Part shown: positions 4,770 through 61,144 of the stretch, one piece after another | Numbering within the stretch: the first letter of the stretch is position 1 | Layout: every line of letters begins with the position of its first letter | Assembly (NCBI GenBank): GCA_947455645.1 | Contig: CANGPA010000002.1 | Coordinates: forward strand, 1-64,000 | DNA: 64,000 bases | Reading direction: 5' to 3' | DNA from: Hyphomicrobiales bacterium | Lineage (GTDB): Bacteria > Pseudomonadota > Alphaproteobacteria > Rhizobiales > Beijerinckiaceae | The notes under the pieces: model-generated | The model's input: the letters and a program-made list of their open reading frames with translations, nothing else | Database searches by the model: none | What the model was told of the DNA's origin: nothing | Translations under genes and position numbers: made by a program

Positions 4770-5522
4770 ATGGCCGCAGCCGCAGCTCCCAAAGAAGCCG
4801 AACAAGAAGGCGAGAAGAAGAAAAAGCCGATCCTCAAGATCTTGCTTTTCGTCATTGGCGGCATCGCGCTGATCGGAACCGGATTCGGCAGCGCCGTTCT
4901 CTATATCAAGCTCACAACGCCCAAGGATGAGAATCCGCTCGCGATCGTGATCGAGAAAAAGGGCGAAGCCCCGCCCGAAGGCGAACATGCGGCGGATGCT
5001 CACGCCGAAGCTGGCGCCAAAGTCCCGCATAAAGTCACCGAAGCCGAAAAGAAGGCTGAGGAAGCCGCTGCCGCCAAGAAGGGCGGCGAAGGTGGCCATG
5101 GCGGCGGCGAAGCCAAGCCGGCCGAAGGCGGCCATGGCGGTGGCGAAGGTGGTCATGGCGGCGAAGGCGACGCGAAGGGCAAAGCCGTGCCGCAGGAAGA
5201 AAAATTCGTCACCTCCTATTACGAATTCCCCACCCCGTTCACGACCAATCTCAAGAATTCACGCAAATTTATCCAGGCCGGCCTCGGTGTCGGCACGCAA
5301 TATGACGCCACCGTGATCGAAAACCTGAAAAAACATGAGCTTGCGATCAAATCGGAAGTTCTGCTGATTTTGGCCGATACAACGGAGGCTGACCTCGTCG
5401 GTATCGAAAATCGCAAGAAGGTTCAGGACAAAATCCGCGACGGCATTAATACAATTCTTACAGAACGTGAACATTTTGGGGGAATCGAAAACGTTTTCTT
5501 TACCACTATGGTTATGCAGTAA
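4770..5522 (+). CDS. fliL: Flagellar basal body-associated protein FliL
   Basis: FliL is an inner-membrane protein around the stator units that supports torque generation. A single membrane segment lies at about residues 21-46 after a Lys-rich cytoplasmic start, and the periplasmic FliL domain occupies about 143-250. Between them is a long Ala/Glu/Lys linker that turns into repeated Gly-Gly-His units (about 105-135). At 250 residues it is longer than the common 150-180, wholly because of this linker. It sits between fliK and fliM as in many flagellar operons. Confidence 0.92.
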   Translation: MAAAAAPKEAEQEGEKKKKPILKILLFVIGGIALIGTGFGSAVLYIKLTTPKDENPLAIVIEKKGEAPPEGEHAADAHAEAGAKVPHKVTEAEKKAEEAAAAKKGGEGGHGGGEAKPAEGGHGGGEGGHGGEGDAKGKAVPQEEKFVTSYYEFPTPFTTNLKNSRKFIQAGLGVGTQYDATVIENLKKHELAIKSEVLLILADTTEADLVGIENRKKVQDKIRDGINTILTEREHFGGIENVFFTTMVMQ

Positions 5523-39067: not shown

Positions 39068-39111
39068 AGATTTCACCGAATTTGAACCTGGTCGAACAAA
39101 GGATCGCCACG

Positions 39112-40743: not shown

Positions 40744-40771
40744 GACCATAACAAAGATTAAGGGCGCGACC

Positions 40772-42115: not shown

Positions 42116-42124
42116 GATAGATCC

Positions 42125-43381
42125 ATGCTGGAAATCGTAAAGCGTCTGAGTCTAGAACCCGGTCAATACGCGTCTCATATCGCTGATTTGAAATCCTATT
42201 GGGATGATGAATTTGACGATATTCCTTGGAAATCAAAACCCATTCGCGTCACGATTGATCAGTCACTCAAGACGCTCGAATTTTATTTCATCTTTGAAAA
42301 TATTCTAGAACTACCCGATATTGATGTGTCGCTCGTGGACACGCATGACGTCGATGCGACGGCCATTCAGTTTGACTGGAAGAGATCGGAGGAAGAGCCA
42401 GGTCTTTTTCTCACCATAAGCGGATTGATGCCAAATCAACTCGATCAACTCATATTTTCTCAAAACCCAAAAGCCGTCAGGCCAGCCAAATTGGTATGCT
42501 TGCAAAAAGATGGCACGGAGTGGGTCGTCATCTACAATAGTTTCGACCGATTTAAGCGGATGATTATGAATTGGACCGAGAACCATTCCGGCCAAACCGT
42601 CGAATTTGATAAATACTTTTTTCGGTTTGTTGAATTTCTATTGTCTGCGAAATATTCCGAGGCCAGTCAGTTTTTCGAACAAACACCGGAGCTCGCCAAC
42701 AAGAAAAAAGAACTCTCTTGGATACCAGAAAAATTCGATGTTGCCTTTAATGCTCACGGCATCAAACGGATATTCAAATATTGGAGCCTTGAGGAGCGCC
42801 ATGCATACCTCAATTCCGCTTTAAATATTATTGAGGTCTTGAAACCGAAATTTGAAAACATCTGTATCAGCGGGGGATCTATTCTCGGTCTGAAGAGAAC
42901 GGGTAAATTATTGGATCATGACGATGATCTTGATATTGTCGTCGGTGTAAAAGCTTCAGATTTTGGCGGACTTGGACCGACTCTTGACGCGTTAGCCCAA
43001 TGCCTGACCGCGGCCGGCTTCAAGGTCAAAGGCTATTTTTTCGCCCATCTTTGGGTCGAGACCGATGCCCAGTCCGGTCAAACACTCGATGTGTTTGTAG
43101 CCATTATGGAAGATGATTTCGCATCATTTTACCCGTCACATCGCAAGTCCATGAAGAGTACCGATCTGTTTCCGTCACAACTTGCCTTGATAGAAAACAT
43201 CGAAGTTCCTGTCCCGGGAGATGTCGATGGTTATCTCGAAGGTGTCTATGGCAAGAACTGGAGGACGCCGGACCATGGATTTCGCCACCCGTGGAATCGA
43301 AAGGAATATTCCGATCTCTCCGGCACAAGAAAACATAAGATAATCTGGACGCGCGGCGAGGTCGCTGCGCTGTCGCGTTAA
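42125..43381 (+). CDS. Second LicD-family phosphotransferase
   Basis: This 418-residue protein has a C-terminal LicD-type domain with CISGGSILGLKRTGKLLDHD at about residues 247-266 and the intact metal-binding DDDLDIVV right after. The N-terminal ~230 residues are not recognised. With two LicD-like proteins and two CDP-polyol enzymes in a row, one transferase per donor (ribitol and glycerol phosphate) is a reasonable idea. The gene begins nine bases after the CDP-ribitol synthase-like gene. Confidence 0.8.
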   Translation: MLEIVKRLSLEPGQYASHIADLKSYWDDEFDDIPWKSKPIRVTIDQSLKTLEFYFIFENILELPDIDVSLVDTHDVDATAIQFDWKRSEEEPGLFLTISGLMPNQLDQLIFSQNPKAVRPAKLVCLQKDGTEWVVIYNSFDRFKRMIMNWTENHSGQTVEFDKYFFRFVEFLLSAKYSEASQFFEQTPELANKKKELSWIPEKFDVAFNAHGIKRIFKYWSLEERHAYLNSALNIIEVLKPKFENICISGGSILGLKRTGKLLDHDDDLDIVVGVKASDFGGLGPTLDALAQCLTAAGFKVKGYFFAHLWVETDAQSGQTLDVFVAIMEDDFASFYPSHRKSMKSTDLFPSQLALIENIEVPVPGDVDGYLEGVYGKNWRTPDHGFRHPWNRKEYSDLSGTRKHKIIWTRGEVAALSR

Positions 43382-43438
43382 CATAGTCCGGGCGAATACT
43401 CGAAGGTTTCCAGTCTCAAAGCAAAGGTCGAACGTGTC

Positions 43439-43840
43439 ATGAAAATCATTCTCACCTATGGTACCTTTGATTTATTTCATGTCGGCCATGTTCGCTTGCT
43501 TCAGCGTCTTCGTGACCTTGGCGACCATCTCATTGTCGGCGTATCAACGGACGCATTTAACGCCAAAAAAGGTAAACGCGCGACCATGGCCTATTCCGAT
43601 CGCGCGGAGATTGTCGGCGCACTGCGCTATGTCGATCAAGTCATTCCTGAGCACGACTGGCCGCAGAAAATCACCGATATTCAAAAATACAACGTCTCGA
43701 TCTTTGGAATGGGCGATGATTGGGCTGGAAAATTTGATGAATTGAAGGCGTATTGTGACGTTGTCTATCTTCCCAGAACGGAGGGAATTTCGACAACCAG
43801 CCTAAAATCGACCATTTACGAGCGAAATGTCGCCGCTTAG
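43439..43840 (+). CDS. tagD: Glycerol-3-phosphate cytidylyltransferase (TagD-like)
   Basis: The 133-residue enzyme has the cytidylyltransferase motifs TYGTFDLFHVGHVRLLQR (HxGH near residues 15-18) and RTEGISTTSLKS (the ISTT signature, about 116-127). It would make CDP-glycerol from CTP and sn-glycerol-3-phosphate, the donor of glycerol-phosphate units. Length and motifs match TagD/Gct of Gram-positive teichoic acid synthesis and capsule loci of some Gram-negatives. It lies 57 bases after the second licD-like gene. Confidence 0.9.
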   Translation: MKIILTYGTFDLFHVGHVRLLQRLRDLGDHLIVGVSTDAFNAKKGKRATMAYSDRAEIVGALRYVDQVIPEHDWPQKITDIQKYNVSIFGMGDDWAGKFDELKAYCDVVYLPRTEGISTTSLKSTIYERNVAA

Positions 43841-43935: not shown

Positions 43936-44910
43936 TCAATCGGCCTGAACAGTGTTTGCCAAAATATTCAGCTGCTTAATATAAATCTCTGTCGAATTAC
44001 CACGCGTGATAATTGTATTAAAGCCAACGATGGCAGGCTCCCGATAAGGGTTTAGCCCTCTTTCCTTAATAAAATGATCATAAGGAATGGCCGATTCAAT
44101 TGTCAGAAGCTTGAGATAGTCCGAGACATCAATACCCACGTCAGATGGGTGTGACTTTAGAACAAAATTGATATTGTCCTTTTCAGATTTAATATTCTTA
44201 ATATCAGTTCTATATTTAATATATTCCGAAGGCCGGCTTAGTGTTTTAATCGGCGGCAATAAAATTGCGATGTGCTTGTCAGTATCGTTCTCATTCAGAA
44301 ATTCGATACCGCACATCGGAAGGGCAATCTTTTCATAACCCGGAAAAGCTTCCGGGAAAAACGATATCAAAGATCGTAATTTTCTATGATGGAAATCATA
44401 AAAACGTACACCGCGTGAATAGTGTTCGTTGAGCCGATCATAATCAATCTGCAAAACAGAGAAACAGTCCAACAAGGGTGCAGCTTTTTTAATGCTCTTT
44501 TTGAGCCAAAGATGCGTTTTCAACAGATTGAAACGAGCGCCATAGGCCGAGCTTCCTTCATCATAGATGATGAGATCAGTACAAAGATTGGATTCGATTA
44601 AGGCCCGAACATAGAAATTTCCCATTTGGGGAGCGCAAAGCGTAAATTTTCCGCCGCGATTTAGAAGTTCAGTTCCCAGACGCGCCAAAGTTTCACAGGT
44701 GTGCTGCAATTCCTCATCAGTTTGGAGGAAAAAATCATGCCGGTCACCCAAATGATAATGTGACTCGGGCGGATGAAATGTGCGCGACGTAACCAGAATA
44801 ATTTTTTCCGGCCCATAAATATCCCGCATCGCCAGATAGGTTTCATACCCGATGGGCGACCAGGCAATAAGGACAAATAGATTATCAGGCGTTTCGTTTT
44901 GATCGCTCAT
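43936..44910 (-). CDS. Putative glycosyltransferase, sialyltransferase-like
   Basis: A 324-residue soluble protein with alternating strand/helix regions: FVLIAWSPIGYETYLAM at the start, DLIIYDEGSSAYGARFNL in the middle and NFVLKSHPSDVG toward the end. The KSHP segment and a DEG-type motif recall bacterial sialyl- and polysialyltransferases (GT-B type), which use CMP-nonulosonates. As the last gene of the pse unit it is a candidate for transferring the pseudaminic acid residue. The assignment is by pattern and context; another GT-B fold enzyme is possible. Confidence 0.5.
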   Translation of the reverse strand: MSDQNETPDNLFVLIAWSPIGYETYLAMRDIYGPEKIILVTSRTFHPPESHYHLGDRHDFFLQTDEELQHTCETLARLGTELLNRGGKFTLCAPQMGNFYVRALIESNLCTDLIIYDEGSSAYGARFNLLKTHLWLKKSIKKAAPLLDCFSVLQIDYDRLNEHYSRGVRFYDFHHRKLRSLISFFPEAFPGYEKIALPMCGIEFLNENDTDKHIAILLPPIKTLSRPSEYIKYRTDIKNIKSEKDNINFVLKSHPSDVGIDVSDYLKLLTIESAIPYDHFIKERGLNPYREPAIVGFNTIITRGNSTEIYIKQLNILANTVQAD

Positions 44911-44966: not shown

Positions 44967-46010
44967 TTAAGCAATAACAGACCAAGTCATTGGTGTTCCG
45001 CGCTTGATCGGTTGCTTAGCTTGCCGGCCAATAAGGGCGTCGAAATGCTTCGGCATAAGGCCGTGACCGGGTCTAATGCACCGGAGATTGTCTTTGGTAA
45101 ATGATTCACCGGGCGCGATATCTTTGACGGCGTAAATTGAACGACGGCGTGTAACGGCACGCGTTTCGGCGGCGGTTGGCCCATAAGAGACCTTGCCAAG
45201 GGCTTGCCACGCTCTTTCCGTTTCCGTCACAAGCGCTTTAAACTCATCTGGCTCGAGCGAAAATGTGCTATCGACACCACCATCCGCGCGATCAAGTGTA
45301 AAATGCTTTTCAATCACAGTAGCACCCAGCGCCACAGCGGCGACCGCGGCACCCAAACCCATCGTGTGATCCGATATCCCAATTTCACACTGAAATAGAT
45401 CTCGCATATGCGGAATGGTCAGAAGATTCGAATTAAGGGGTGTCGCCGGATACGTACTCGTACATTTGAGTAAAGTTAGCGATGTGCAACCCGCATCCCG
45501 CGCTGCGGACACCGCTTCGTGGAGCTCGGCCACCGTCGCCATGCCGGTCGAGATGATCATCGGCTTTCCAGTTGCCGCCACTTTTCTGATGAGCGGCAAA
45601 TCGACATTTTCGAAGGATGCAATTTTATAGCAAGGGACGTCGAGTGTTTCGAGAAAATCGACAGCCGTTTCATCAAAGGGCGAGGAGAAGGCCATCATTC
45701 CGAGCTCACGCGCCCGGTCAAAAATCGGCTTGTGCCAATCCCATGGCGTATGCGCCTGCTGATATAATTTATAAATCGATTGGCCGGCCCAGAGGCTTTT
45801 CGGATCCGAGATGAAGAATTCACCTTCCTCCGAATCAATTGTCATCGTATCGGGCGTATAGGTTTGAAGTTTGAGCGCATGCGCGCCCGCTTTTGCGGCC
45901 TCTTCAACAATCAAGAGCGCGCGTTCCAAAGATTGATTATGATTACCCGACATTTCGGCAATGACAAAGGGCGCATGGTCTTGGCCAATGGAACGGTCTG
46001 CAATGATCAT
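44967..46010 (-). CDS. pseI: Pseudaminic acid synthase PseI
   Basis: PseI condenses the diacetamido-trideoxy-altrose sugar with phosphoenolpyruvate to make pseudaminic acid. The NeuB-type TIM barrel (about residues 1-275) has FVIAEMSGNHNQSLERAL, KLQTYTPDTMTID and EIGISDHTMGLGAAVAAVAL. A C-terminal SAF/antifreeze-like domain starts near RRSIYAVKDIAPGESF. The 347-residue length fits PseI better than NeuB/LegI paralogues, and pseB, pseC, pseF and pseG in the same unit support the pathway. Confidence 0.93.
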   Translation of the reverse strand: MIIADRSIGQDHAPFVIAEMSGNHNQSLERALLIVEEAAKAGAHALKLQTYTPDTMTIDSEEGEFFISDPKSLWAGQSIYKLYQQAHTPWDWHKPIFDRARELGMMAFSSPFDETAVDFLETLDVPCYKIASFENVDLPLIRKVAATGKPMIISTGMATVAELHEAVSAARDAGCTSLTLLKCTSTYPATPLNSNLLTIPHMRDLFQCEIGISDHTMGLGAAVAAVALGATVIEKHFTLDRADGGVDSTFSLEPDEFKALVTETERAWQALGKVSYGPTAAETRAVTRRRSIYAVKDIAPGESFTKDNLRCIRPGHGLMPKHFDALIGRQAKQPIKRGTPMTWSVIA

Positions 46011-46056: not shown

Positions 46057-46281
46057 TTATTTGAAAAAATCGGCCAGCGCATGGATGGTCTGTAGTTTCG
46101 GTAAGACTTCATCAGGCACTTTACGGCCGGCATGTGCCTCAAGTTCGACAAGCAAAGTATAAAAATCAAGACTATCGATGCCCAGTGACTCAAGCGGTTG
46201 ATCGAGCGGTGTTGTTGCCAAATCAAGGGACTTATCGAGAGTTTTATTGATGATCTCAAGGATTGCGACTTCGTTAATCAT
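46057..46281 (-). CDS. Dedicated acyl carrier protein
   Basis: A 74-residue acyl carrier protein with ESLGIDSLDFYTLL, where Ser37 is the phosphopantetheine site. AAGGAG precedes ATG 46281, which overlaps the stop of the ketoacyl synthase gene (ATGA), so the two are translationally coupled. It presumably holds the acyl group made by that enzyme for the LpxD-like acyltransferase. It is separate from any general fatty-acid ACP, which would be encoded elsewhere. Confidence 0.92.
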   Translation of the reverse strand: MINEVAILEIINKTLDKSLDLATTPLDQPLESLGIDSLDFYTLLVELEAHAGRKVPDEVLPKLQTIHALADFFK

Positions 46282-47222
46282 AATTGGATCTCCTTTTTTT
46301 GGATTGAGATAAGAGCACTTGCCCAAGACAGACCAACACCGAAGCCGCTCACAAGTATTCGGCCGTCAAGTTCATCCATAGCGTGACGTTCTAACAAGAG
46401 CGGGATTGATGATGACACCGTATTACCAGTTTCGGTGATGTCCTTGATAAACCGGCTTGAAAGGGGAGCAAAGGATCGCGCAATAGAATCGACGATCGCC
46501 GCACTGCCCTGATGCAAAAAATAAAGATCAATATCGTCCGGCTCAAGCTTTTCCCGCGCAAGCAGCGAACGAATATGGGCCGGAACTTGTGTTGCAGCGA
46601 AAGAGAAAATTTGCCGCCCATTCATTCGTAAATGGCTCTGTTCATTCTTGAGAAATTCCGCTCCCGATCCATCCGTGCCATAAGATACAGCATCAAGCGA
46701 TAGCACCGGCGAATGACCAACCCAACTCGCCGTAGCCGCGTCTCCGAATAACAGGCTCGTTACACGATCACTGGGGTCGACAATTTTTGAATAGGGGTCG
46801 GCTGTAATCAGCAAGCCATTTGATAAACCCGAAGCTTCAAGAAAACCCTTCAGGATGAATAGTCCATATACATAGCCGGAGCATCCGAGCGAGACATCGA
46901 AGGCGGCCACATGGGTTGGCAATCCAAGTTTTGCTTGTACGATCGCCGCCGTATGCGGCAAGCCAACGCCATCCGGATTTTGTGTCACGACGACAAGCGC
47001 ATCAATGGCAGCAGGATTGAGCGCCGGTTGCTTTGCGAAAAGGGCTCTAACGGCTTCAACCGCAAGATCAGATGTTTCCTGTGCCACATCCTTGAGGGGT
47101 AGCCGAACAGCGCCGATTTTAGAACGAATAAAGTCTTCCGTTTCTCCAAAACCTGCGCCGCGGGCGATGTTATCCGTCGTTTTTGGGGGCATGTAGCTTG
47201 CAATTGCTTTGATCCCAATCAT
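46278..47222 (-). CDS. 3-Oxoacyl-ACP synthase III (FabH-like)
   Basis: This 314-residue thiolase-fold enzyme has the KAS III catalytic triad: Cys114 in SLGCSGYVYGL, His237 in FLHQG and Asn267 in ETGNTVSSSIP. KAS III enzymes join an acyl-CoA to malonyl-ACP, giving a short 3-oxoacyl-ACP. The start overlaps the previous gene and the end overlaps the ACP gene by four bases each, placing it firmly in the pse operon. Its likely job is to make a short acyl chain for the sugar. Confidence 0.9.
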   Translation of the reverse strand: MIGIKAIASYMPPKTTDNIARGAGFGETEDFIRSKIGAVRLPLKDVAQETSDLAVEAVRALFAKQPALNPAAIDALVVVTQNPDGVGLPHTAAIVQAKLGLPTHVAAFDVSLGCSGYVYGLFILKGFLEASGLSNGLLITADPYSKIVDPSDRVTSLLFGDAATASWVGHSPVLSLDAVSYGTDGSGAEFLKNEQSHLRMNGRQIFSFAATQVPAHIRSLLAREKLEPDDIDLYFLHQGSAAIVDSIARSFAPLSSRFIKDITETGNTVSSSIPLLLERHAMDELDGRILVSGFGVGLSWASALISIQKKEIQL

Positions 47223-47818
47223 GGCGACCCCACTATAAAACGGATTGTTCCGACAGGCTTTTCGTTAAGTTGAATTTCATTGAGGCTGAAGCGGTTGCCA
47301 ACAATATTTTTGCGTTCAATGCGCGTAATCTGATGATCCGTATCGAGTCGACAAGAAAGATCAATCTGACCAAAGACCCATCGACCGGAAACCTCCGGTG
47401 AGAGGGCATAATTCAACTTCTTCGTAAGCGCGATGATTTCCTCGATTGGCGAATAATGCGAACGCTTAGAAAGAGTGATCGCATTTTCATCTACAACTGC
47501 AGTTGCAACGAGATCATCTTCATCAAATGGACGGCGCGTTGTAACTTCATCACCTGTTTCAATAATCCAGAGATTAGTACCTGTTCCAAGTTTAGCGAAG
47601 GCCAATCTCGCTTTCCCAATGGTTTGTACATTGGTAGCCGGCTCGTCGGTAGTTACAGCGAGCGCGTTTCGTGCGAATCGCTTGAATATTAGTTGACTTA
47701 CAAATGCTGATTGATCGCCTGACACGAATTCAGCAATCTCGGCCAAGGCATTAAACAAGTCACTGCCGTGAAGATATGTCCGTGAGCCTTTCCATGCGAG
47801 CGTAAGCGGTTCAATCAT
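47219..47818 (-). CDS. Unknown protein of the pse operon
   Basis: A 199-residue protein between the LpxD-like and KAS III genes. It starts with IEPLTLAWKGSRTYLHGSDL and contains DEDDLVATAVVDENAITLSK and a beta-rich end (NRFSLNEIQLNEKPVGTIRF). No signal, membrane segment or known motif. Its place suggests a role in making or loading the acyl chain, for example as a hotdog-type dehydratase or reductase partner, but no catalytic motif supports that. I chose ATG 47818 over TTG 47824. Ends in an ATGA overlap. Confidence 0.65.
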   Translation of the reverse strand: MIEPLTLAWKGSRTYLHGSDLFNALAEIAEFVSGDQSAFVSQLIFKRFARNALAVTTDEPATNVQTIGKARLAFAKLGTGTNLWIIETGDEVTTRRPFDEDDLVATAVVDENAITLSKRSHYSPIEEIIALTKKLNYALSPEVSGRWVFGQIDLSCRLDTDHQITRIERKNIVGNRFSLNEIQLNEKPVGTIRFIVGSP

Positions 47819-47820
47819 GA

Positions 47821-48735
47821 TCAATCTCCCCGCTCAAATCGGCCCTGTCGGCTGACGGCTTCTGAGCGCGAAAATGCTAACATCCGTGCGCTGTGATCGG
47901 TCGCGAAATTTCCTGACACCGCTTTCCCGTCAGCAACCGGCGTTACAACAACGGAACCGGCCATGATGCGGGCATGATGGCCAATACGGAGATTTTCCTT
48001 AATCGTAACATTTGTTCCGAGGAAAGCGTCTTCACCGATCACGCTGCGACGAGCAACGACACAATTGTTCGAGACTACGGCACGAGTACCAATCTTCGCT
48101 TCATGTCCTATGATCGAAGAAAGTCCAATCAGACTTGAGGCACCGATCACTGTATCCTCAGTGTCATGCACAGCTCGAACGACAACGGCGTTTGTCATCA
48201 AAATAGCGCCGTCATCGACAATAACAAAGCCGCCATGCGGGATGAGACGTGGACCGGAAATAGTCTTGCGGTAAAGAATACCTTCCATACCAATTTTTAC
48301 ACCCGGCTCGATGGTTACACCCGAACCAATCGAAACATGACTGCGGATAATCGCGTGTTCGCCGATCGTTGTGTGATTACCAATTCTTGCACCAGCCTCG
48401 ATTATGGCCGTCGGATGGATCCGGCAATGGAGACCAATGCCCTCTTCAAAAGACTTCGTATACAGATTTTCACGCACAAATTTCTCATGAATATCATAAA
48501 ATAGGTCGCGCGGCGTGTTGGAAACAGCAAGCCCAATTGGCCTGTCCAGCGTGGCGGCGAGAGAAGGAGTCGTAACGAGTCCAGCCAATGCTGCATTTGA
48601 CAAGGCACGCGCCAAAAAGGTGGCGGTATCGGCATAAGCGAGAACGCCTGATCGCTTCGAATCAACATATCCAAGCGTCACAAACGCCGCATCGCGAACC
48701 AGAGCATCACGAGACACAACATCCGACAAATTCAT
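47821..48735 (-). CDS. LpxD-like left-handed beta-helix N-acyltransferase
   Basis: The first ~100 residues resemble the uridine-binding domain of LpxD. The rest is a hexapeptide-repeat beta-helix (IHPTAIIEAGARIGNHTTIG, EHAIIRSHVSIGSGVTIE and so on). LpxD moves a 3-hydroxyacyl chain from ACP to the amino group of a UDP-sugar. In this operon it likely acylates the 4-amino group of the UDP-sugar made by PseB and PseC, the step done elsewhere by the GNAT enzyme PseH, which is missing from the window. The start at ATG 48735 overlaps pseG by four bases. 304 residues. Confidence 0.8.
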   Translation of the reverse strand: MNLSDVVSRDALVRDAAFVTLGYVDSKRSGVLAYADTATFLARALSNAALAGLVTTPSLAATLDRPIGLAVSNTPRDLFYDIHEKFVRENLYTKSFEEGIGLHCRIHPTAIIEAGARIGNHTTIGEHAIIRSHVSIGSGVTIEPGVKIGMEGILYRKTISGPRLIPHGGFVIVDDGAILMTNAVVVRAVHDTEDTVIGASSLIGLSSIIGHEAKIGTRAVVSNNCVVARRSVIGEDAFLGTNVTIKENLRIGHHARIMAGSVVVTPVADGKAVSGNFATDHSARMLAFSRSEAVSRQGRFERGD

Positions 48736-49832
48736 CTTAAGCCTCGTTCGATGAGATCGGCGGCGGAAACCGCGGAGGACGGCATAAGCCTTGCGATTTG
48801 CATGCCAAGTGCGGCGCATTGGTCGGGGTGGTCGATGAGGGTTATAAGTGCCTGTGCGATCCGGCTGCGGATCGCATCACGCGCGTCATCCGTGTAAATG
48901 CCGAGATCAATGCCACCGCCCTGCGCGGCGAGCGCGCGGATCGAGCCGGTCTGATTGTCGGCAATGCTCAATAACAAAGCGGGCAGACCCATCCGGCATT
49001 GTTCAACCAGCATTGTGCCGCCAGCACCAATGGCGAGATCAGCCTGTGCCATCAGCGTTGCAATATCGTTCGGCGCCACATGAAGCGCGATGTTAGATTT
49101 GCCTGCAACACGATGTTCAAGCGCCGCGCGATGCGGATTGCCCGCGCCAATCACGAGATCGGCCGCGATGTCGGGCTGGTCAAGCGAGAGAAACGCTTCA
49201 AGCGCAAGGCCCGTGGCGTTGGGTTCATCGACTCCACCAAAGCCGATAAACACGCGCCGGATTGTACCATCGCGCACTTCGGTGCGGCGAACCTCCCGAA
49301 ACTCGCGCCGCAACGGTGCATATTGCGGACCTGTGCGCACATCGCAGCGCGGCTCAACCAAGTCGGTCCAACGGTTAGCGCCACCAATCGAAAAACTCGG
49401 ATCAATCAAGAGATCGCACGCATGGGCGCGATTGGCCAATCCATCTATCGCCATCAACTGCGCACCGGTCGCCTTGGCAACCGCACGCTCCCAGCGCCGG
49501 TCAATCGCGTAATGATCGGCAATCACAAAACCGGGCTTGAGATTAATAAAAGCCGCAATCATATCCTGTATGTCGGTCTCGATATCGGCACCAAGCCATG
49601 CGGCATAGGGTTCGCTCGGATCCGCACGCACGGGGCGAAGCGGTAAAAGAATAAGGTCATGACCTGCCGCCGTAATGGCCGCGCCAAAATGACCCGGATG
49701 GGCACGGCACACGAAGCGGCACGAAATACCGCGCGTCACAAGATCGGATGCGAGCGCGAGGCACCGCATCACATGACCAGTGCCTATTACCGTTGAAGCG
49801 TCCGTCCGGATGGCGACGAGCCGTTGCCTCAT
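48732..49832 (-). CDS. pseG: UDP-sugar hydrolase PseG
   Basis: PseG removes UDP from UDP-2,4-diacylamido-2,4,6-trideoxy-altrose in the pseudaminic acid pathway. The N-terminal GT-B-like motif STVIGTGHVMRCLALASDL contains the catalytic His (about residue 20), and the C-terminal domain has ADLAIGAGGTMLVEQCRMGL. ATG 49832 overlaps the pseF stop. The 366-residue length is near the family size. Confidence 0.9.
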   Translation of the reverse strand: MRQRLVAIRTDASTVIGTGHVMRCLALASDLVTRGISCRFVCRAHPGHFGAAITAAGHDLILLPLRPVRADPSEPYAAWLGADIETDIQDMIAAFINLKPGFVIADHYAIDRRWERAVAKATGAQLMAIDGLANRAHACDLLIDPSFSIGGANRWTDLVEPRCDVRTGPQYAPLRREFREVRRTEVRDGTIRRVFIGFGGVDEPNATGLALEAFLSLDQPDIAADLVIGAGNPHRAALEHRVAGKSNIALHVAPNDIATLMAQADLAIGAGGTMLVEQCRMGLPALLLSIADNQTGSIRALAAQGGGIDLGIYTDDARDAIRSRIAQALITLIDHPDQCAALGMQIARLMPSSAVSAADLIERGLR

Positions 49833-50536
49833 GATAGGCGCTCCACCCGTTGCGCTGCGAATAATTGTTCGGCGACACGCCAATCTTCGGGCGTGTCGAT
49901 ATCCTGCACGCGATCACGCGGTAGAATAACGGGCACCGCAGCCTCCGAAAACATTTTGCGATTAGCAAGAAACGCATCCGTTCGGCCCCAATAAAATTGC
50001 CCGGCATCATGCCAGGCCTCTTCGAGATCCTGCGAACGCGTCATCGCATGTTCAGGCGCGAACATATCAACACGACCATTGGGCATAAGGCGCAGCGCGC
50101 GCTGGATCGGAAACGCAAAGCTCGTAACGCTAAACGCGAACTCCGCACCGCTTGACTGCAAGAGATCAAAGCCAGTCAGCAAATCTCCAGCCCGCATAAA
50201 GGGTGCGGTGGCATAAAGGCAGCAGACAAAATCAGGCTTGCCATAAAGCGTTGCCGCCGCATCGATGGCATGATTAATCACGGGACGTGTTGGCGTATGA
50301 TCATCAGACAGATCAGCAGGCCGCATGAAAGGCGTTTCAGCCCCTTCAGCACGCGCGATTGCCGCGATTTCGATATCATCAGTCGAGACGATGATATGAT
50401 CAAATAGGCCTGACTCGCGTGCGGCTGCAATCGTCCAGCCGATCATGGGCCGACCGTGAAAGGTACGGATATTCTTGCGCGGAATGCGCTTGCTTCCCCC
50501 GCGCGCTGGAATGATGGCAAAAGCGTTCTTGCTCAA
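49829..50536 (-). CDS. pseF: CMP-pseudaminic acid synthetase PseF
   Basis: This 235-residue cytidylyltransferase activates pseudaminic acid with CTP. The family start AIIPARGGSKRIPRKNIRTF, then IIVSTDDIEIAAIARAEGAE and FPIQRAL are typical of PseF/NeuA. Its stop overlaps pseG and its start overlaps the methyltransferase end, so translation is coupled. PseF rather than NeuA is chosen because of neighbouring pseB, pseC, pseG and pseI. Confidence 0.92.
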   Translation of the reverse strand: MSKNAFAIIPARGGSKRIPRKNIRTFHGRPMIGWTIAAARESGLFDHIIVSTDDIEIAAIARAEGAETPFMRPADLSDDHTPTRPVINHAIDAAATLYGKPDFVCCLYATAPFMRAGDLLTGFDLLQSSGAEFAFSVTSFAFPIQRALRLMPNGRVDMFAPEHAMTRSQDLEEAWHDAGQFYWGRTDAFLANRKMFSEAAVPVILPRDRVQDIDTPEDWRVAEQLFAAQRVERLS

Positions 50537-51588
50537 TCGTTCCTCTTCAACAGCAAGAGTTCTGAGTGAAAGCCGTCGACTGTTTTATATCCGAATGGAA
50601 AGACATTTTTTTCCACCAATTCGTACTTCGGTAACATTGCCAAATAGTCGTCAGATTTAATTGGTGTTTTCACACCAACAGAATGAGTCTTTTTGACTTG
50701 CTTGCCCTCACGCATATTTCTGAGCAAAATCCAACGCGAACCAAGGCGATCGACGTGGTTCAGGTAGTTTTCGACGATATGCGGTTCCATTTCCTGAAAG
50801 GAAATGAAATTTACAAATAAATCGATGTCACCTTGTAGCTTCTCGATTTGCCATGAGCAAAGCACAGACGCCTGCGGCAAAGACTCGATTCTAATTTCTG
50901 TTTTGTCTTTTGTATCGGAATAGCCGATTACATTTTTAGCCCCAAGAACTTGCGTGAGATAATATTGAGCCACAAAACTCGTCGGCGGAATATCAATGTC
51001 AATATAGCGCTGATCTTTAATTCCGGAATGGGCCAGAATTTCTCCCAATGTTCCAAATCCGCCCCCAATTTCAAGGACATTGCGTAGGGGATCTTGCGGT
51101 TGCAGATGCTTTTTCAACATCGCCAATCCGAGGAGATAATTGAGTGAAGACCGGCTAAAATTTCGCCCGTCAAAGGCGAATTGTTCTATTGGATTGCCAA
51201 CGCCGCTCTCTGTAAACTGATGCAAATATGGATATTTGTTTACATCATCAGAGGCCAGCAAAACGCGGTAGTCGGATAAAGCTTGACTACTACCCGACAG
51301 AAATTGCTCAAGCGCTAAATTCGGCTTTTTACCTTCTCCGTATTCGTGCTGCAGCCAGCTTTTCAAACCGTCCGCTTGCTTTTGGGAAAAGCTATTTCCG
51401 GGCGACCCATAGGTCGGAACAAAAAAGCCCAGCGCCTTGGGAAGCGATCTGAATTGATCGATCCCGCTCGCCTCAAGCTCTTGGACAATTTGTTCCGAAG
51501 ATTCAGCCCAAAATGCTGATGGCCGATAGACTTCCTCTTGAAGAGCAAGATCAGTTCGGGCTTGGGTCAATTCAGAATAAGAATGCAT
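50533..51588 (-). CDS. Putative sugar O-methyltransferase
   Basis: A 351-residue protein with a SAM-binding Rossmann motif VLEIGGGFGTLGEIL in its middle and downstream segments SWQIEKLQGDIDLFVNF and NHVDRLGSRWILLRNM typical of a family described as putative sugar O-methyltransferase. It probably methylates a pathway sugar or the final nonulosonate. It overlaps pseF and follows pseC by 70 bases. The start is ATG 51588, directly after an in-frame GTG. Confidence 0.75.
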   Translation of the reverse strand: MHSYSELTQARTDLALQEEVYRPSAFWAESSEQIVQELEASGIDQFRSLPKALGFFVPTYGSPGNSFSQKQADGLKSWLQHEYGEGKKPNLALEQFLSGSSQALSDYRVLLASDDVNKYPYLHQFTESGVGNPIEQFAFDGRNFSRSSLNYLLGLAMLKKHLQPQDPLRNVLEIGGGFGTLGEILAHSGIKDQRYIDIDIPPTSFVAQYYLTQVLGAKNVIGYSDTKDKTEIRIESLPQASVLCSWQIEKLQGDIDLFVNFISFQEMEPHIVENYLNHVDRLGSRWILLRNMREGKQVKKTHSVGVKTPIKSDDYLAMLPKYELVEKNVFPFGYKTVDGFHSELLLLKRND

Positions 51589-51658
51589 CACTCAATTACT
51601 CACTTTGATAAGTCATTTATCACAAGAAATTTGATCATTGTGTTGATCGGCTATCCCA

Positions 51659-52834
51659 TCATTGCAAAACCGCTCTTAACGCAGCAACAATCGTGTTCTG
51701 CTCTTCGTCGGTCATCGCACTAAAGAGAGGAATCGTAATCGCGCGCGCATAATAGGCTTCGGCTGCGGGGCAATATCCGTCACTAAAACCGCGCGCGCGA
51801 TAAACCGGCTGCAAGTGAACCGGAATATAATGCACGTTGACACCGATATCTGATGATCTCAGCGTATCAAATATTTGCCGACGCGTTTTTCCAACCGTAT
51901 CCGTATCGATCACGATCGGATAGAGATGATAAGAAGACTGACCGGCGTGATGTTGCCATGGCGTCGTCAACGGAAGATCCGCGAGGATTTCATCATAGCG
52001 CGCCGCAAGCACCCGACGCCGCGCAACGAATTGGTCAAGCTTTGCGATCTGGCTAAGTCCCAGCGCCGCCTGAAGATCGGTCAACCGATAATTAAGGCCG
52101 ACGTCTTGTAATTCATAATACCATGGACCCATCACGTCAGAGGTCTGTGCGGCGGAACTCATTCTCTTCACATCGCGGGTAATACCGTGGCTCCGCAGAT
52201 CCGCCATACGTTGAGCAAGCGCGGAGTCTCGCGTTGTAATCGCACCACCCTCACCCGTCGTGATGATTTTCACAGGATGAAAACTGAAGACGCACGCGGC
52301 CGAATAGCGACAATCGCCAACGGGACCACCATCGGCATCCGCACCAATGGCATGAGACGCATCTTCGATAATGGAAAAGCCATAGCGATTGGCCAAAGCC
52401 GCCAAACGCGGCATGTCGCAGGATTGACCGGCGAAATGGACGGGCACAACGAGATCTGGCAAACGGCCGCCGGCTCTCTGCGTGCTTTCTAATTTTTCTT
52501 CAAGCCTGTCTGCCGACAGACAATAGGATTTCGGATCGATATCGACAAAATCAATATCTGCGCCACAGAGCAGCGCGGTGTTTGCGGTTGCTACAAATGT
52601 ATTCGGCGTCGTCCATACGAGACTTTTTGCGCCAACACCCAAGGCAAGCATGGCAATATGCAAGCCGGCCGTGGCATTTGAAACGCACACGGCATGAGGC
52701 GCGTTTACGCGTGCGGCAATCGCGCGCTCGAACGCCGGCACCATCGGGCCTTGTGTCAGAAAATCCGACTTTAAGACCTTTACAACCGCTTCAATGTCGC
52801 TCGGATCAATATCTTGGCGACCATAAGGGATCAC
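51659..52834 (-). CDS. pseC: UDP-sugar aminotransferase PseC
   Basis: PseC is a PLP-dependent DegT-family enzyme that adds the 4-amino group to the PseB product. The start IPYGRQDIDPSDIEAVVKVL, the Schiff-base lysine K189 in FSFHPVKIITTGEGG, and ENASHAIGA-like IIEDASHAIGA are diagnostic. At 391 residues it matches the family. It begins two bases after pseB. Confidence 0.93.
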   Translation of the reverse strand: MIPYGRQDIDPSDIEAVVKVLKSDFLTQGPMVPAFERAIAARVNAPHAVCVSNATAGLHIAMLALGVGAKSLVWTTPNTFVATANTALLCGADIDFVDIDPKSYCLSADRLEEKLESTQRAGGRLPDLVVPVHFAGQSCDMPRLAALANRYGFSIIEDASHAIGADADGGPVGDCRYSAACVFSFHPVKIITTGEGGAITTRDSALAQRMADLRSHGITRDVKRMSSAAQTSDVMGPWYYELQDVGLNYRLTDLQAALGLSQIAKLDQFVARRRVLAARYDEILADLPLTTPWQHHAGQSSYHLYPIVIDTDTVGKTRRQIFDTLRSSDIGVNVHYIPVHLQPVYRARGFSDGYCPAAEAYYARAITIPLFSAMTDEEQNTIVAALRAVLQ

Positions 52835-52836
52835 GA

Positions 52837-53856
52837 CTACAGTCTCCCGATCGCATTATAATTTTGCTTGATCCAGGAATTGAGACAAGACTGCGTCATC
52901 CAAGCGGAATTATTTTCGCTGGTATAACGGAATCCGTCGCAGACTTTCTTGCCGTTCTTGATTCTTTTTTGATCCATATTCCAGCTATGGATTGTTGGCA
53001 GAATTTTGAAATGTCCCTCATATTCAAATGTGGAAGGAGAATCCTCTTCGCCAATCATCTGCTCATGAAGCTTTTCACCCGGCCGAATGCCGACAAATTC
53101 AAGACGCGCTTTTGGCGCGATGGTTTTGGCCAATTCGGTCACCTTCATAGAAGGGATTTTTTTGACATAGATTTCGCCGCCCACCATGTCGGAAAAGGCG
53201 GTCCATACCAGCTCTACAGCTTCCTCTAAAGAAATCATAAAGCGTGTCATACGCTCATCGGTGATGGGCAAGACACCATCATTGGCCAATGACATGAAGA
53301 ACGGAATAACCGATCCCCGTGATCCCATTACATTGCCATAACGCACAACGGAGAAGCGTGTCTTATTGGCACCAGAATATGAATTGCCGGCAACAAAGAG
53401 CTTGTCGGACGCCAGTTTCGTAGCGCCGTAAAGATTGACCGGGCTGCTGGCTTTATCCGTGGACAAAGCAACAACGCGCTTAACACCTTTATCAATACAA
53501 GCATCAATCAAATTCATTGCGCCATTGATATTGGTCTTTACGCATTCAAATGGATTATATTCGGCTGTCGGAACAATTTTTGTCGCTGCCGCATGCACAA
53601 CATGGTCAACGCCGTCTAGGGCACGATAGAGCCGGTCACGGTCGCGAACATCCCCAATAAAGAAACGCACTCTCTCATCATTTTGAAAGAGCTTTGCCAT
53701 TTCCCATTGCTTCATCTCATCCCGCGAATAGATGATGAGTTTCTTGGGGTTAAAGCGCTTTAATGTCATTGGCACGAATTTATGTCCAAATGAACCCGTG
53801 CCGCCGGTCACTAAAATCGTTTTACCTTCAAGAAGATGGATATCATGATCGTTCAT
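52837..53856 (-). CDS. pseB: UDP-N-acetylglucosamine 4,6-dehydratase (inverting) PseB
   Basis: PseB converts UDP-GlcNAc to the first pathway intermediate. The Rossmann motif TGGTGSFGHKF lies at about residues 17-27, followed by IIYSRDEMKQWEMAK and the YxxxK segment NLYGATKLASDKLF. The length of 339 residues is typical. It is first of the pse genes and lies 45 bases downstream of a flagellin gene on the same strand without an obvious terminator between them. Confidence 0.95.
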   Translation of the reverse strand: MNDHDIHLLEGKTILVTGGTGSFGHKFVPMTLKRFNPKKLIIYSRDEMKQWEMAKLFQNDERVRFFIGDVRDRDRLYRALDGVDHVVHAAATKIVPTAEYNPFECVKTNINGAMNLIDACIDKGVKRVVALSTDKASSPVNLYGATKLASDKLFVAGNSYSGANKTRFSVVRYGNVMGSRGSVIPFFMSLANDGVLPITDERMTRFMISLEEAVELVWTAFSDMVGGEIYVKKIPSMKVTELAKTIAPKARLEFVGIRPGEKLHEQMIGEEDSPSTFEYEGHFKILPTIHSWNMDQKRIKNGKKVCDGFRYTSENNSAWMTQSCLNSWIKQNYNAIGRL

Positions 53857-53901: not shown

Positions 53902-54768
53902 TTAACCCTGCAGGAGCTTCAACACGGTCTGTGGCATCTGGTTTGCCTGTGCCAACATGGCGGTTGCGGCCTGCTGAATGATCTGATGACGTGCCAATTC
54001 CGAAGTGGCTTCAGAGTAATCGACGTCTTCAACGCGGCTGCGGGATTCCGCAATATGGGTCGACACATTGGTCAAATTGTCGACGGTGAACTGAAGGCGG
54101 TTGATGCTTGCACCAAGGCGCGAGCGGAATGAATTCAACGCACCCATCGCCGAGTCAATGCCGCTAATTGCGGTCTGGGCGTTGAGTGCTGATGAAATGC
54201 TGGTGCCATCGAGATCCGAATAGCCGCCCGAAATCACATGCGAGCCTGAGGCGCCGGAGGGATCGAGATTACCGAATGTTACGGTAATGATTTCTTTAGA
54301 GTCAGTGCCCGCACCCACTTTGAATTGAACGCCCCCACTCGGGAAGGTCGTTCCATTGAGGATGGGGAAGCCGTTCCACTGGGTCGTTGCCGCAACGCGC
54401 TGAATTTCCTGATAGAGCTGGCTATATTCCAGCTGCATCGATGTGCGGTTATCGGATGAATAAGTGCCATTCATCGATTGAATGGACAATTCACGCATGC
54501 GCTGCAGCATGCTTGTAATGGTGTCGGCTGCTGATTCCGCCGTTTGCAGCATACCGATGCCGTCATTGGCGTTTCGAATAGCCTGATGAAGACCGGTGAC
54601 TTGCGCCGTCATATTATTGGCAATCGCAAGACCTGCCGCATCATCGGCTGCCGAATTGATACGCTTACCAGTCGACAACTGTTCCATCGTCGCCTGAAGG
54701 CCACGTGTATTCTTCGCAAGCGCCGCCTGTGTAATCAGGGAGGCGGAATTCGTATTAATGACCGTCAT
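53902..54768 (-). CDS. fliC: Flagellin (copy 1, upstream of the pse genes)
   Basis: The N-terminal helix MTVINTNSASLITQAALAKN, LSTGKRINSAADDAAGLAI and the C-terminal ATSELARHQIIQQAATAMLA identify flagellin. The protein is 288 residues, a short flagellin lacking large D2/D3 domains. ATG 54768 has AGGAG upstream; a longer frame would add a non-flagellin leader. The surface region between residues 150 and 210 differs from the other two flagellins. A strong sigma-54 promoter precedes it, and the pse genes follow directly. Confidence 0.95.
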   Translation of the reverse strand: MTVINTNSASLITQAALAKNTRGLQATMEQLSTGKRINSAADDAAGLAIANNMTAQVTGLHQAIRNANDGIGMLQTAESAADTITSMLQRMRELSIQSMNGTYSSDNRTSMQLEYSQLYQEIQRVAATTQWNGFPILNGTTFPSGGVQFKVGAGTDSKEIITVTFGNLDPSGASGSHVISGGYSDLDGTSISSALNAQTAISGIDSAMGALNSFRSRLGASINRLQFTVDNLTNVSTHIAESRSRVEDVDYSEATSELARHQIIQQAATAMLAQANQMPQTVLKLLQG

Positions 54769-54812
54769 GATCTTACTCCTGTGACGTCGGAACGTGCGTT
54801 CGGCGGAACAGC

Positions 54813-54828
54813 TGCAAGCTGTGTGCCA
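54813..54828 (-). promoter_or_regulatory. Sigma-54 promoter of the flagellin-pse unit
   Basis: On the - strand the site reads TGGCACACAGCTTGCA, a full RpoN core match (-24 GG complements 54826-54827, -12 GC complements 54814-54815). The predicted start is near 54803, 35 bases before the flagellin ATG. Confidence 0.9.
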
Positions 54829-55157
54829 GCCAAGAGACGCGAAACGGAGCCAACGCGGCAGAGGGATGAATTTGCTCTCAAAAGCACGCATCTCGGTGCG
54901 ATATTTCGTCGTTGAAAAGTAAGAAAATATAATAAAAACAATAAACTAGCGTGAAATTAACCATAGCCAGACATCCCCTCTTTGGCAGTCCCGGATTCAG
55001 TTTTTCATCGGAAAACAAAGGAATTTTACAAAATCGCTAAAAGAATTCTGACGGCCGCCGTCTTCCCCAGCATCGGGAGCAGTCCTGCTTTCGGAAGAGT
55101 TCAACGACCCCCACGGCCTCGTTGATCGTAGCGTGTATCTTAATAAGGAGTAGAGAC
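54829..55157. other. Divergent flagellin control region
   Basis: About 330 bases between the divergent flagellin genes. The part 54908-55060 is AT-rich and holds no convincing gene. I see one weak -24/-12-like site at 55074-55089 for the + strand flagellin and no clear sigma-28 site. Confidence 0.5.
55074..55089 (+). promoter_or_regulatory. Weak sigma-54-like site before flagellin 2
   Basis: The site CGGGAGCAGTCCTGCT keeps GG (55075-55076) and GC (55087-55088) at the right step but matches the boxes poorly. The predicted start near 55100 would leave a 58-base leader. The flagellin may instead use sigma-28. Confidence 0.25.
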
Positions 55158-59269: not shown

Positions 59270-61144
59270 TTAGACGCCAGATTTTGGTTGGCTATGGGCA
59301 ACCGAAAACAAAAGATCTTCAAAAGCGCGGCAGAATTTTTCGGTATCAAAAAGCGGATGGGTCATTTTATTGGCGCTGAGTTTTGCCTTCAAGGTGGCAA
59401 GGCGCACCGGATCCGCAACAAGGGCCAAGGCCAGAGCCTCATAATCCGCCCAGGATTGCGTAATCATCTCCGGCAATCCAATGGCATGGAGCAGGCTCGA
59501 CGCCACACGCGCCGGAAATGCGCCGCCCTGATACGTCAAAACAGGAAGACCAACACCCAAAGCATCCGCCGCCGTCGTATGCGCATTATAGGGCCAGGTA
59601 TCGAGAAACAGATCCGCGAGGCGGTAGCGCGCCAAATGATCTTCCACACGCGGCACACGCGCGGCAAACACGAGCCGTTTTCCTGAAATACCCGACATTT
59701 CTGCTGCATTCCGGAAATTGGCCTTTGTTTCCTCATTACGAGCCACGAGCCACAAAACCGCTCCCGGAACTTTCGCCAATAACGACATCCAGACACGCCA
59801 AAGCGGCGGCGAAATTTTATAGTCATGCGAGAAAGAACAGAAAACGACGCCCTCGTCAGGAAGACCGCAGTCCGCACGCGTCGGGGTCGCCTCAGCGCTT
59901 TTGAGCGACCGATCGGTCGGCAGATAGGTATCCGGCATATAAAGAATTTTTTCGGTAAAAAACGTCTGATGTTCTGGCGGGATTACATGCCGATCAGCGA
60001 TCAGATAATCCATATAATCGACGCCCAGCGTACCGGGATATCCGAGAAAATTGATTTGAACCGGTGCCGGTCGATAGGCGAAAATTTCAGTACGGGAATC
60101 GGCGGTGTAGCCGGCAAGATCAATCGCGCAATCGACTTCCATCTCACGCATTTTTTCAGCAATTTTATTCGAGGCTACACCACGCGCTTCAATAAAATTA
60201 TCGAAATTTGATCGAATGCGATCACGCAGCGCGCTGCGATCATCAATACCCAAAGAAATGGCGATCGTCTCAACGCGGCTGCGATCATGATGAGCAAACA
60301 GACCCGCCATCAAATGGCCGACCGGATGCTCCCGCAAATCCGGTGAGACATAGGCAATTCTCAATTTGTCATGGCGATAAGAGTCACCAGACCACAGGGG
60401 ATCCCGCGCTTTCGGCGCATAGTGATCTGCAAAAATCCGCCCGCAGGTAAACTGATCTTGCGCGGAATCAGAAAGCGCCATGAAAGGAAGGCTTTTACAG
60501 ACTTTGCGACCCTCCCGAACCCCTTCGATAATCTCGTCCCGCAAGCTCGCAAAATTGGTCCAATCGGCGATATGCATACGCTCATAAAGCAGCAAACCGG
60601 CAATATAATCATGGTTCGGATAAAGGCGATGGAGCCGATCAAACAGCGCAATCGACTGATCGACTTGTTTGAATTCAGATAAAAGAATGGCATAATTGCC
60701 TAGTGCTGTTTGATGATCAGGATTAATTTCAAGCGCGCGTTCAAAACATTTCAGCGAGTCATGATGGCGCAACATATTGCGCAACAAAACACCTTTATCG
60801 ACAATCGCCTCGACATAATGGGGATCGGCCTTAATCGCCTCATCATAGGATAAAAGCGCCTGGTCCCAACGCCCCAATTTCTGGCAGGTCACCGCATAAC
60901 CAAACCAATTGGGTGCGAAATCGGGCGTCGTGATGCAGCCATGACGAAAGATCTGGTTCGCTTCCTCTACCGCTTCGCGGCCAATCAAAATAACGCCGAG
61001 AGAATAAATCGCGACTTTGTTGTTAGGATCATCAAGCAGAAGGGCTCGAAAAGCGCGCTCCGCCTCATCCACAGCGCCGGAATTCTGAAGCGCAAGCGCG
61101 GCTTCGATTGAAACCCTTGGTGCGGGACGACTTTGAGTACTCAC
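59270..61144 (-). CDS. TPR / O-GlcNAc transferase-like glycosyltransferase
   Basis: The 624-residue protein begins with about six tetratricopeptide repeats (about residues 12-190, for example QALLSYDEAIKADPHYVEAI). A GT41-type catalytic region follows, with YVSPDLREHPVGHLMAGLF, INFLGYPGTLGVDYMDYLIA and RLADLFLDTWPYNAHTTAAD. Such enzymes glycosylate Ser/Thr on proteins, and flagellin transferases in alphaproteobacteria share the TPR plus glycosyltransferase plan (FlmG of Caulobacter). It lies beside the flagellins and fliD, so flagellin modification is a strong guess. Confidence 0.85.
   Translation of the reverse strand: MSTQSRPAPRVSIEAALALQNSGAVDEAERAFRALLLDDPNNKVAIYSLGVILIGREAVEEANQIFRHGCITTPDFAPNWFGYAVTCQKLGRWDQALLSYDEAIKADPHYVEAIVDKGVLLRNMLRHHDSLKCFERALEINPDHQTALGNYAILLSEFKQVDQSIALFDRLHRLYPNHDYIAGLLLYERMHIADWTNFASLRDEIIEGVREGRKVCKSLPFMALSDSAQDQFTCGRIFADHYAPKARDPLWSGDSYRHDKLRIAYVSPDLREHPVGHLMAGLFAHHDRSRVETIAISLGIDDRSALRDRIRSNFDNFIEARGVASNKIAEKMREMEVDCAIDLAGYTADSRTEIFAYRPAPVQINFLGYPGTLGVDYMDYLIADRHVIPPEHQTFFTEKILYMPDTYLPTDRSLKSAEATPTRADCGLPDEGVVFCSFSHDYKISPPLWRVWMSLLAKVPGAVLWLVARNEETKANFRNAAEMSGISGKRLVFAARVPRVEDHLARYRLADLFLDTWPYNAHTTAADALGVGLPVLTYQGGAFPARVASSLLHAIGLPEMITQSWADYEALALALVADPVRLATLKAKLSANKMTHPLFDTEKFCRAFEDLLFSVAHSQPKSGV

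Follow-up and report, generated by a model that had tools for sequence, protein, structure and literature searches.

A candidate acyl carrier protein-dependent acylation cassette inside a pseudaminic acid operon of a Hyphomicrobiales bacterium

A pseudaminic acid operon with embedded acyl-chain genes

The DNA analysed here, hereafter the window, comprises the first 64,000 nucleotides (nt) of contig CANGPA010000002.1 from a Hyphomicrobiales bacterium of the Beijerinckiaceae (assembly GCA_947455645.1), and carries a set of pseudaminic acid (Pse) biosynthesis genes, all on the minus strand, which runs from coordinate 53856 to 44967. The order along this strand is pseB, pseC, a NanM-type O-methyltransferase gene, pseF, pseG, an LpxD-like acyltransferase gene, the gene of a predicted hotdog protein, the genes of a ketoacyl-acyl carrier protein synthase III (KAS III) and of an acyl carrier protein (ACP), and finally pseI:

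52837..53856, minus strand: pseB, UDP-GlcNAc 4,6-dehydratase (inverting); TIGR03589, 527.0 bits (cut-off 407.75)
51659..52834, minus strand: pseC, UDP-4-keto sugar aminotransferase; TIGR03588, 534.5 bits (cut-off 423.5)
50533..51591, minus strand: putative sugar O-methyltransferase of the NanM type, between pseC and pseF; TIGR04371, 288.7 bits (cut-off 44)
49829..50536, minus strand: pseF, CMP-pseudaminate cytidylyltransferase; TIGR03584, 322.4 bits (cut-off 205.7)
48732..49832, minus strand: pseG, UDP-sugar hydrolase; TIGR03590, 254.4 bits (cut-off 153.55; scored on 48732-49841)
47821..48735, minus strand: putative LpxD-like left-handed beta-helix N-acyltransferase, 304 aa; Hexapep, 74.2 bits
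47219..47818, minus strand: hotdog protein P0001, 199 aa; predicted compact double hotdog
46278..47222, minus strand: ketoacyl-ACP synthase III; ACP_syn_III, 67.2 bits, and ACP_syn_III_C, 65.7 bits; triad C114-H237-N267
46057..46281, minus strand: acyl carrier protein with DSL phosphopantetheine serine S37; PP-binding, 39.4 bits (cut-off 20.8; scored on a slightly longer reading, 46057-46293)
44967..46010, minus strand: pseI, pseudaminic acid synthase; TIGR03586, 503.1 bits (cut-off 340.25)

The five Pse enzymes (PseB, PseC, PseF, PseG and PseI) all score above their NCBIfam cut-offs, and family models and coordinates bear out the original prediction, which had placed the pse, KAS III, ACP and LpxD-like genes together on one strand at this site. 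The active-site residues that it had named are also in place: KAS III contains both ACP_syn_III domains and a Cys-His-Asn triad whose members are each invariant in the seven aligned proteins, that of the window among them, and the serine of the ACP DSL motif falls on residue 37. The tight linkage described earlier is seen as four-base overlaps at five of the nine junctions from pseB to pseI (nanM-like/pseF, pseF/pseG, pseG/lpxD-like, hotdog/KAS III and KAS III/ACP), the remaining ones being gaps of 2 nt (lpxD-like/hotdog and pseB/pseC), 46 nt (ACP/pseI) and, as the widest, 67 nt (pseC/nanM-like). A scan for promoters and terminators gave counts near those of shuffled sequence (15 vs 12.5 and 16 vs 13.5) and was uninformative. 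In any case, the genes form one operon-like run, and the set is more than a chance assembly, because hotdog, KAS III and ACP genes recur together in four other loci. Judging from this gene content, an ACP-dependent acylation of the Pse precursor is, on balance, the probable function of the embedded cassette.

Recurrence of the cassette

A plasmid search gave one relative, on a plasmid of Pontivivens nitratireducens, and a hotdog alignment scanned against the contigs of 84,980 species gave ten candidate stretches, four of which were confirmed, two of these being new. The gene orders of the relative cassettes are as follows:

Pontivivens nitratireducens (plasmid L010, contig L028): ACP, LpxD-like, hotdog, KAS III, then an FdtA/QdtA-type cupin and an aminotransferase
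Aliiroseovarius sp. Z3: FdtA cupin, aminotransferase, ACP, LpxD-like, hotdog, KAS III
Rhodospirillaceae metagenome-assembled genome (MAG; L029, identical to L024): NeuB-family synthase, LpxD-like, hotdog, KAS III, ACP
Burkholderiales MAG: DegT aminotransferase, hotdog, KAS III, ACP, then a different hexapeptide protein

Counting the window, there are five distinct cassettes, which all contain KAS III and ACP genes together with an aminotransferase or nonulosonate synthase gene, and four of which contain the LpxD-like gene. The original prediction had proposed a survey of genomes for conserved co-occurrence. The hotdog, KAS III and ACP genes are found together in all four loci outside the window, each adjoining an aminotransferase or NeuB-family gene, and the LpxD-like gene accompanies them in three. 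Two more distant hotdogs, found as class profile matches (G329 and G426), adjoin an open reading frame (ORF) with the ACP DSL motif, and their loci gave no KAS III or LpxD-like match; overall, KAS III lies near five of seven hotdogs. These patterns allow the speculative and somewhat unlikely idea that the hotdog, KAS III and ACP core is an undescribed portable acyl-ACP module for nucleotide amino sugars generally (pseudaminate, 3-amino-3,6-dideoxyhexoses and other nonulosonates) with an exchangeable acyltransferase, in which the hotdog would be a new enzyme family giving an acyl group new to nonulosonic acids, for example an enoyl group.

The hotdog itself is rare, with matches in 1 of 149 genomes of the family (single-sequence search), 4 of 385 of the class (profile, E 1e-3) and 1 of 398 of the phylum (profile, E 1e-4), counts that include the own genome and come from draws that may overlap. 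In L040 (8437-9380) and L041 (9343-10225), a distant hotdog precedes an ACP-like ORF and a protein of 340-350 aa with no Pfam match, the latter looking alike in the two loci by eye. In the Rhodospirillaceae MAG, the NeuB-family synthase (3-917) precedes the cassette and a deacetylase-like protein (4340-5047; BshB1, 50.9 bits, below cut-off) follows it, a gene content that suggests a further modified nonulosonate.

The LpxD-like acyltransferase

The LpxD-like protein and the KAS III of the window are extra copies in addition to the housekeeping LpxD and FabH. The former scores 88.9 and 86.8 bits on LpxD models, both below cut-offs and the second far below (TIGR01853, cut-off 242.5), whereas a separate LpxD of the same genome reaches 362.7 bits, above cut-off; on the FabH model TIGR00747, the window KAS III obtains 168.2 bits against a cut-off of 292.1 and the genome's own FabH 411.8 bits, above it. 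In spite of this distance, the protein shares with LpxD the hexapeptide beta-helix and the column of the catalytic histidine. In the LpxD-like protein (ACYLTRANSFERASE), H211 falls in this column, is kept in all seven aligned proteins, four of which are cassette members, and aligns with the histidine of the IAHN motif in the own-genome LpxD, which we take to be the column of His239 of E. coli LpxD. The profile alignment with the own LpxD also reaches the N-terminal region (residues 33-109), where there is no Pfam match.

In three loci, two on plasmids and one in a class genome (L013, by reading), relatives with about 30% identity are flanked by Gfo/Idh and DegT aminotransferase genes, with a nucleotide-sugar dehydrogenase gene near, and this setting fits an N-acylation of UDP-amino sugars. 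Among the LpxD-like matches of the class, one (G211) lies in an aminotransferase/Gfo-Idh locus, and two (G413 and G253) have other surroundings that are not such cassettes. By reading, a ligase-like and an ACP-like ORF occur within about 4 kb in G413.

The donor of the LpxD-like enzyme is where the best surviving alternative arises, in which the protein would be an acetyl-CoA-dependent N-acetyltransferase replacing PseH, and KAS III, ACP and hotdog would supply an acyl group destined for some other position or glycan residue. It would agree with the score of the protein on a NeuD/PglB/VioB acetyltransferase model (85.4 bits), nearly equal to that on LpxD, and with the stretches examined around the three Gfo/Idh-DegT loci, which show no adjoining ACP or KAS III gene, so that acyl-ACP use is not constant across the LpxD-like family; a Pseudomonas-type KAS III gene beside pseI, moreover, coexists with a PseH-like domain, as described below. 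However, the LpxD-like gene directly adjoins the hotdog, KAS III and ACP genes in three of the four other cassettes, which suggests a common pathway, and its best solved-structure matches are LpxA and LpxD, both of them ACP-dependent enzymes. We regard this alternative as unlikely.

A predicted compact double hotdog

The protein encoded between the LpxD-like and KAS III genes (P0001), which the original prediction had left as unknown, is still without a family, as no Pfam or NCBIfam model scores above cut-off, and its recognition as a predicted double hotdog is the new point over that earlier reading. A Pfam match to IgD3_Trs65 (E 0.05) was judged to be due to chance, and a ketoreductase assignment was dropped, since the predicted fold is that of a hotdog.

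The AlphaFold2 model of P0001 has a mean predicted local distance difference test (pLDDT) score of 66.2 and is weak over residues 1-95, and its residues 95-198 match FabZ (7qv0; Z 10.8, root mean square deviation (rmsd) 2.9, 96 aligned residues). The model of the Aliiroseovarius homologue (L030; pLDDT 87.2, predicted template modelling score (pTM) 0.86) matches over its whole length the dehydratase (DH) domain of the MlnB polyketide synthase (PKS; Z 12.6, rmsd 3.2, 175 aligned) and, equally well, a TesB thioesterase (4r9z; Z 12.3, rmsd 3.5, 176 aligned). P0001 is thus predicted to be a compact double hotdog resembling PKS DH domains, and the tie between both matches means that the fold does not decide its function. 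Compared with the PKS enzymes, the hotdog is a stand-alone gene near an ACP gene, and it is shorter, with about 200 aa against 265-290 in most of the DH chains listed.

An active dehydratase in this position would leave the ACP-dependent acylation untouched and change only the acyl group, which would be unsaturated (for example crotonyl) or otherwise modified instead of 3-hydroxybutyryl. To the whole-length DH match and the FabZ match of the C-terminal half can be added a histidine just before the first helix (H17), kept in six of seven hotdogs. However, none of the seven has HxxxGxxxxP, the histidine motif of PKS DH domains; at the first helix, all of them show GxRxY(L/V)xGxD instead. In addition, only five keep E126, which lies in the second long helix, and the TesB match is just as good. 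A dehydratase product on the sugar appears improbable.

Presence or absence of PseH

No GNAT-type PseH had been noticed in the window, and none was detected either by Pfam or by a comparison of its ORFs of at least 80 aa with five PseH/GNAT queries (no match at E 0.01); the window PseG, scored on 48732-49841, likewise gave no GNAT match in Pfam and so no fused acetyltransferase domain. At the level of the genome, the search that had been recommended found no convincing PseH, and a divergent one is possible: the PseH model (cut-off 93.1) gives four GNAT matches at 19.7-24.3 bits, and in BLAST searches, two annotated PseH and three further GNATs used as queries match GNATs L001, L002 and L004 of the own genome at 21-30% identity, roughly as they do GNATs of other members of the genus, so that these matches neither prove nor exclude a PseH. 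Sub-threshold matches to the PseH model occur in all 12 genus genomes, none above cut-off. On the other hand, PseI exceeds its cut-off in only one of these 12, the own genome (another reaches 241 bits, below 340.25), so the pse locus was either gained here or lost in the other members of the genus.

Other data show how difficult the absence of PseH is to prove. A PseG with a C-terminal GNAT domain (L021 6340-7842) reaches only 48 bits on the PseH model, and is thus missed by its cut-off. In Caulobacter, the available text of one study reports that the loss of flmH and two paralogues did not phenocopy the loss of the pathway, that is, redundancy at the acetyl step (PMC7591256). The evidence for the absence of PseH from the genome is therefore weak, given the fusion missed by the model, this redundancy, and an assembly that is 95.04% complete in 156 contigs. 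These same facts, together with the GNATs matched by the PseH queries, would speak for an undetected PseH elsewhere, ordinary Pse5Ac7Ac and a cassette devoted to a different surface sugar, but the four sub-threshold GNATs look generic, PseI is above cut-off in the own genome only and the cassette lies inside the pse operon, which makes this alternative quite unlikely.

PseI relatives were found in 49 plasmid records, of which 12 were examined and 9 of these have a gene table. A pseH or GNAT gene is shown in four of the nine annotated loci (incomplete tables, with fusions outside the count), so a pseI locus with no PseH annotated next to it is a common situation. An Agrobacterium plasmid has pseB-C-F-G-I in the order of the window plus pseH, and the Agrobacterium and Tritonibacter loci also list an AAC(3)-type acetyltransferase. 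Among the 12 loci, the KAS III profile matched one (Azospirillum brasilense p3), and the hotdog and LpxD-like profiles matched none.

Comparison with known acylation systems

To our knowledge, the addition of non-acetyl groups such as 3-hydroxybutyryl to nonulosonic acids is poorly understood, and the donor (coenzyme A (CoA) or ACP) has mostly been guessed. The closest precedent for the window operon is the viosamine island of P. syringae pv. tabaci 6605, which, in the available text, comprises vioA, vioM, vioT, vioS, vioB, vioR and acp (PMC3927599), and clusters KAS III, ACP, sugar aminotransferase, acyltransferase and methyltransferase genes for a flagellin sugar. Its product is described there as carrying a 3-hydroxybutyryl and an O-methyl group; without vioR or vioB, flagellin no longer bears the 3-hydroxybutyryl sugar, and in the vioM mutant the methyl group of this sugar is missing (PMC3927599). 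As far as that text goes, the two systems differ in the sugar (dTDP-viosamine, Qui4N, in place of a nonulosonate), in the presence of a ketoreductase, VioR, where the window cassette has a double hotdog, and in the acyltransferase, VioB being a 213-aa acetyltransferase that can be likened only by description to the 304-aa LpxD-like enzyme.

In the portions available of two sources (PMC9676051 and PMC3628348), A. baumannii and S. boydii 7 are named as having a Pse with a 7-N-(R)-3-hydroxybutanoyl group, and their gene sets, psaABCGHF and the type 7 psb genes, resemble the window operon as Pse pathways with a non-acetyl 7-N-acyl group. There, by description, acylation is predicted for Psb5 and the pair psaG/psaH marks the acylated form, and those portions name no KAS III or ACP gene, unlike the window operon. 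A different combination occurs on plasmid p3 of Azospirillum brasilense Sp7 (L058 1231-14710), where GNAT, pseI, alpha/beta hydrolase, ACP, CoA ligase, short-chain dehydrogenase/reductase (SDR), KAS III and flagellin genes share one stretch. The presence of pseI, ACP, KAS III and flagellin recalls the window, whereas the CoA ligase, SDR and alpha/beta hydrolase, and the lack of hotdog or LpxD-like matches, set it apart; its gene content would make it a further example of acyl-supply genes next to those for pseudaminate and flagellin.

Searches restricted to open-licence PMC articles, and hence not proof of absence, found no paper on ACP-based 3-hydroxybutyrylation of pseudaminic acid and no double hotdog wording. 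The predicted double-hotdog family and the portable module are the additions made here, related acyl modules being already known. A compact cassette with most of the candidate parts, including the unclassified hotdog, makes the question of the acyl donor testable in vitro, and would allow unusual flagellin or surface sugars to be predicted from genomes.

A proposed pathway and the evidence that bears on it

In the first step of the proposed pathway, KAS III would join malonyl carried by the private ACP to a short acyl-CoA, in the simplest case acetyl-CoA, giving acetoacetyl-ACP. A reductase from elsewhere, such as housekeeping FabG, would convert this product to 3-hydroxybutyryl-ACP, and the double hotdog would handle the ACP-bound intermediate through dehydration/rehydration, gatekeeping or proofreading. 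The LpxD-like enzyme would then take the acyl chain off the ACP and attach it to the 4-amine, supplied by PseC, of UDP-4-amino-4,6-dideoxy-AltNAc, the step that PseH performs with acetyl-CoA, this amine becoming C7 of pseudaminic acid. Finally, PseG, PseI and PseF would yield a CMP-pseudaminate acylated at N7, which the NanM-like enzyme might also O-methylate and which would be passed on to flagellin.

The ACP-dependent acylation is supported by the run of four-base overlaps, the extra LpxD- and FabH-type copies, the recurrence beside amino-sugar genes and the conserved H211 column. The choice of 3-hydroxybutyryl as the acyl group is more tentative, a quite possible assignment that could well turn out otherwise. 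Support for an acetoacetyl product comes from a P. veronii plasmid (L062 3136-6930), where another KAS III from the clade of the window enzyme, with 52.1% identity to it, adjoins the genes for acetoacetyl-CoA reductase (phbB) and polyhydroxybutyrate (PHB) polymerase (phbC), an arrangement in which a malonyl-based route to PHB is possible.

Several observations weigh against this pathway. No ketoreductase or SDR match was found in the cassette, the sole classical SDR match in the window belonging to an IspD-type fusion (40772-42115) that is encoded on the opposite strand at a distance of about 4 kb, nor was there any SDR match in the four relative loci (stretches of 7.1 to 24.6 kb). In the second histidine column of the LpxD active site, presumably that of E. 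coli His276, the window protein has Asn, and His occurs in one of the seven aligned proteins, that of the Rhodospirillaceae MAG. Donors other than acyl-ACP may serve the LpxD-like relatives that have no neighbouring ACP gene. The P. syringae precedent is itself incomplete in the available text, where vioS (KAS III) and acp are assigned by homology and the mutants tested are those of vioR, vioB and vioM (PMC3927599).

The relationships of the KAS III belong to the same side. A tree was expected to unite the KAS IIIs of the cassettes and failed to do so: the window enzyme falls among Pseudomonas-type KAS IIIs (97/99 support), apart from the other cassette enzymes. Its nearest relatives, with 64% identity, come from two Pseudomonas-type genomes (Pseudomonas being deduced from gene content), where no hotdog, ACP or LpxD-like match lies within 19 kb. 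One of these genes directly follows pseI (by reading) in an operon that also has a PseG-GNAT fusion, which argues against simply taking this KAS III as a sign that PseH is missing; the other adjoins a flagellin-like ORF. The hotdog profile, which did match in the class and phylum searches, had no match in any of five genomes that carry KAS III relatives, including the two Pseudomonas-type ones. Because of this grouping and of the missing hotdog in the genomes of the relatives, the window cassette may be a mosaic. The idea that the cassette stands in place of PseH agrees with the lack of PseH in the window, but strict replacement is not established, given the PseH-like domain beside a related KAS III and the ease with which PseH escapes detection.

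Flagellar surroundings and neighbouring genes

The pse operon probably serves flagellin glycosylation, with two further features of the window as candidate partners:

53902..54891, minus strand: flagellin adjoining the operon (longest possible ORF), likely acceptor; translation reads as flagellin
59270..61144, minus strand: TPR and GT41 protein, candidate flagellin glycosyltransferase; Glyco_transf_41, 283.3 bits, plus TPR matches

Both of these features lie on the minus strand, like the operon itself. Further ORFs that read as flagellins from their translations adjoin the operon, and the TPR-GT41 protein is encoded about 2.3 kb past the third flagellin-like ORF. As far as the available text of the Caulobacter study allows the comparison, this protein shares its domain layout with FlmG (PMC7591256), the comparison being one of layout.

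Directly downstream of pseI, a protein of 324 aa with no Pfam match (43936-44910) could be a transferase. Beyond it, two LicD-type proteins (32.3 bits, over the cut-off of 22.6, and 20.2 bits, below it), the IspD-SDR fusion and a CTP_transf_like cytidylyltransferase lie in a row (39082-43840), which looks like a polyol-phosphate decoration module beside flagellar genes.

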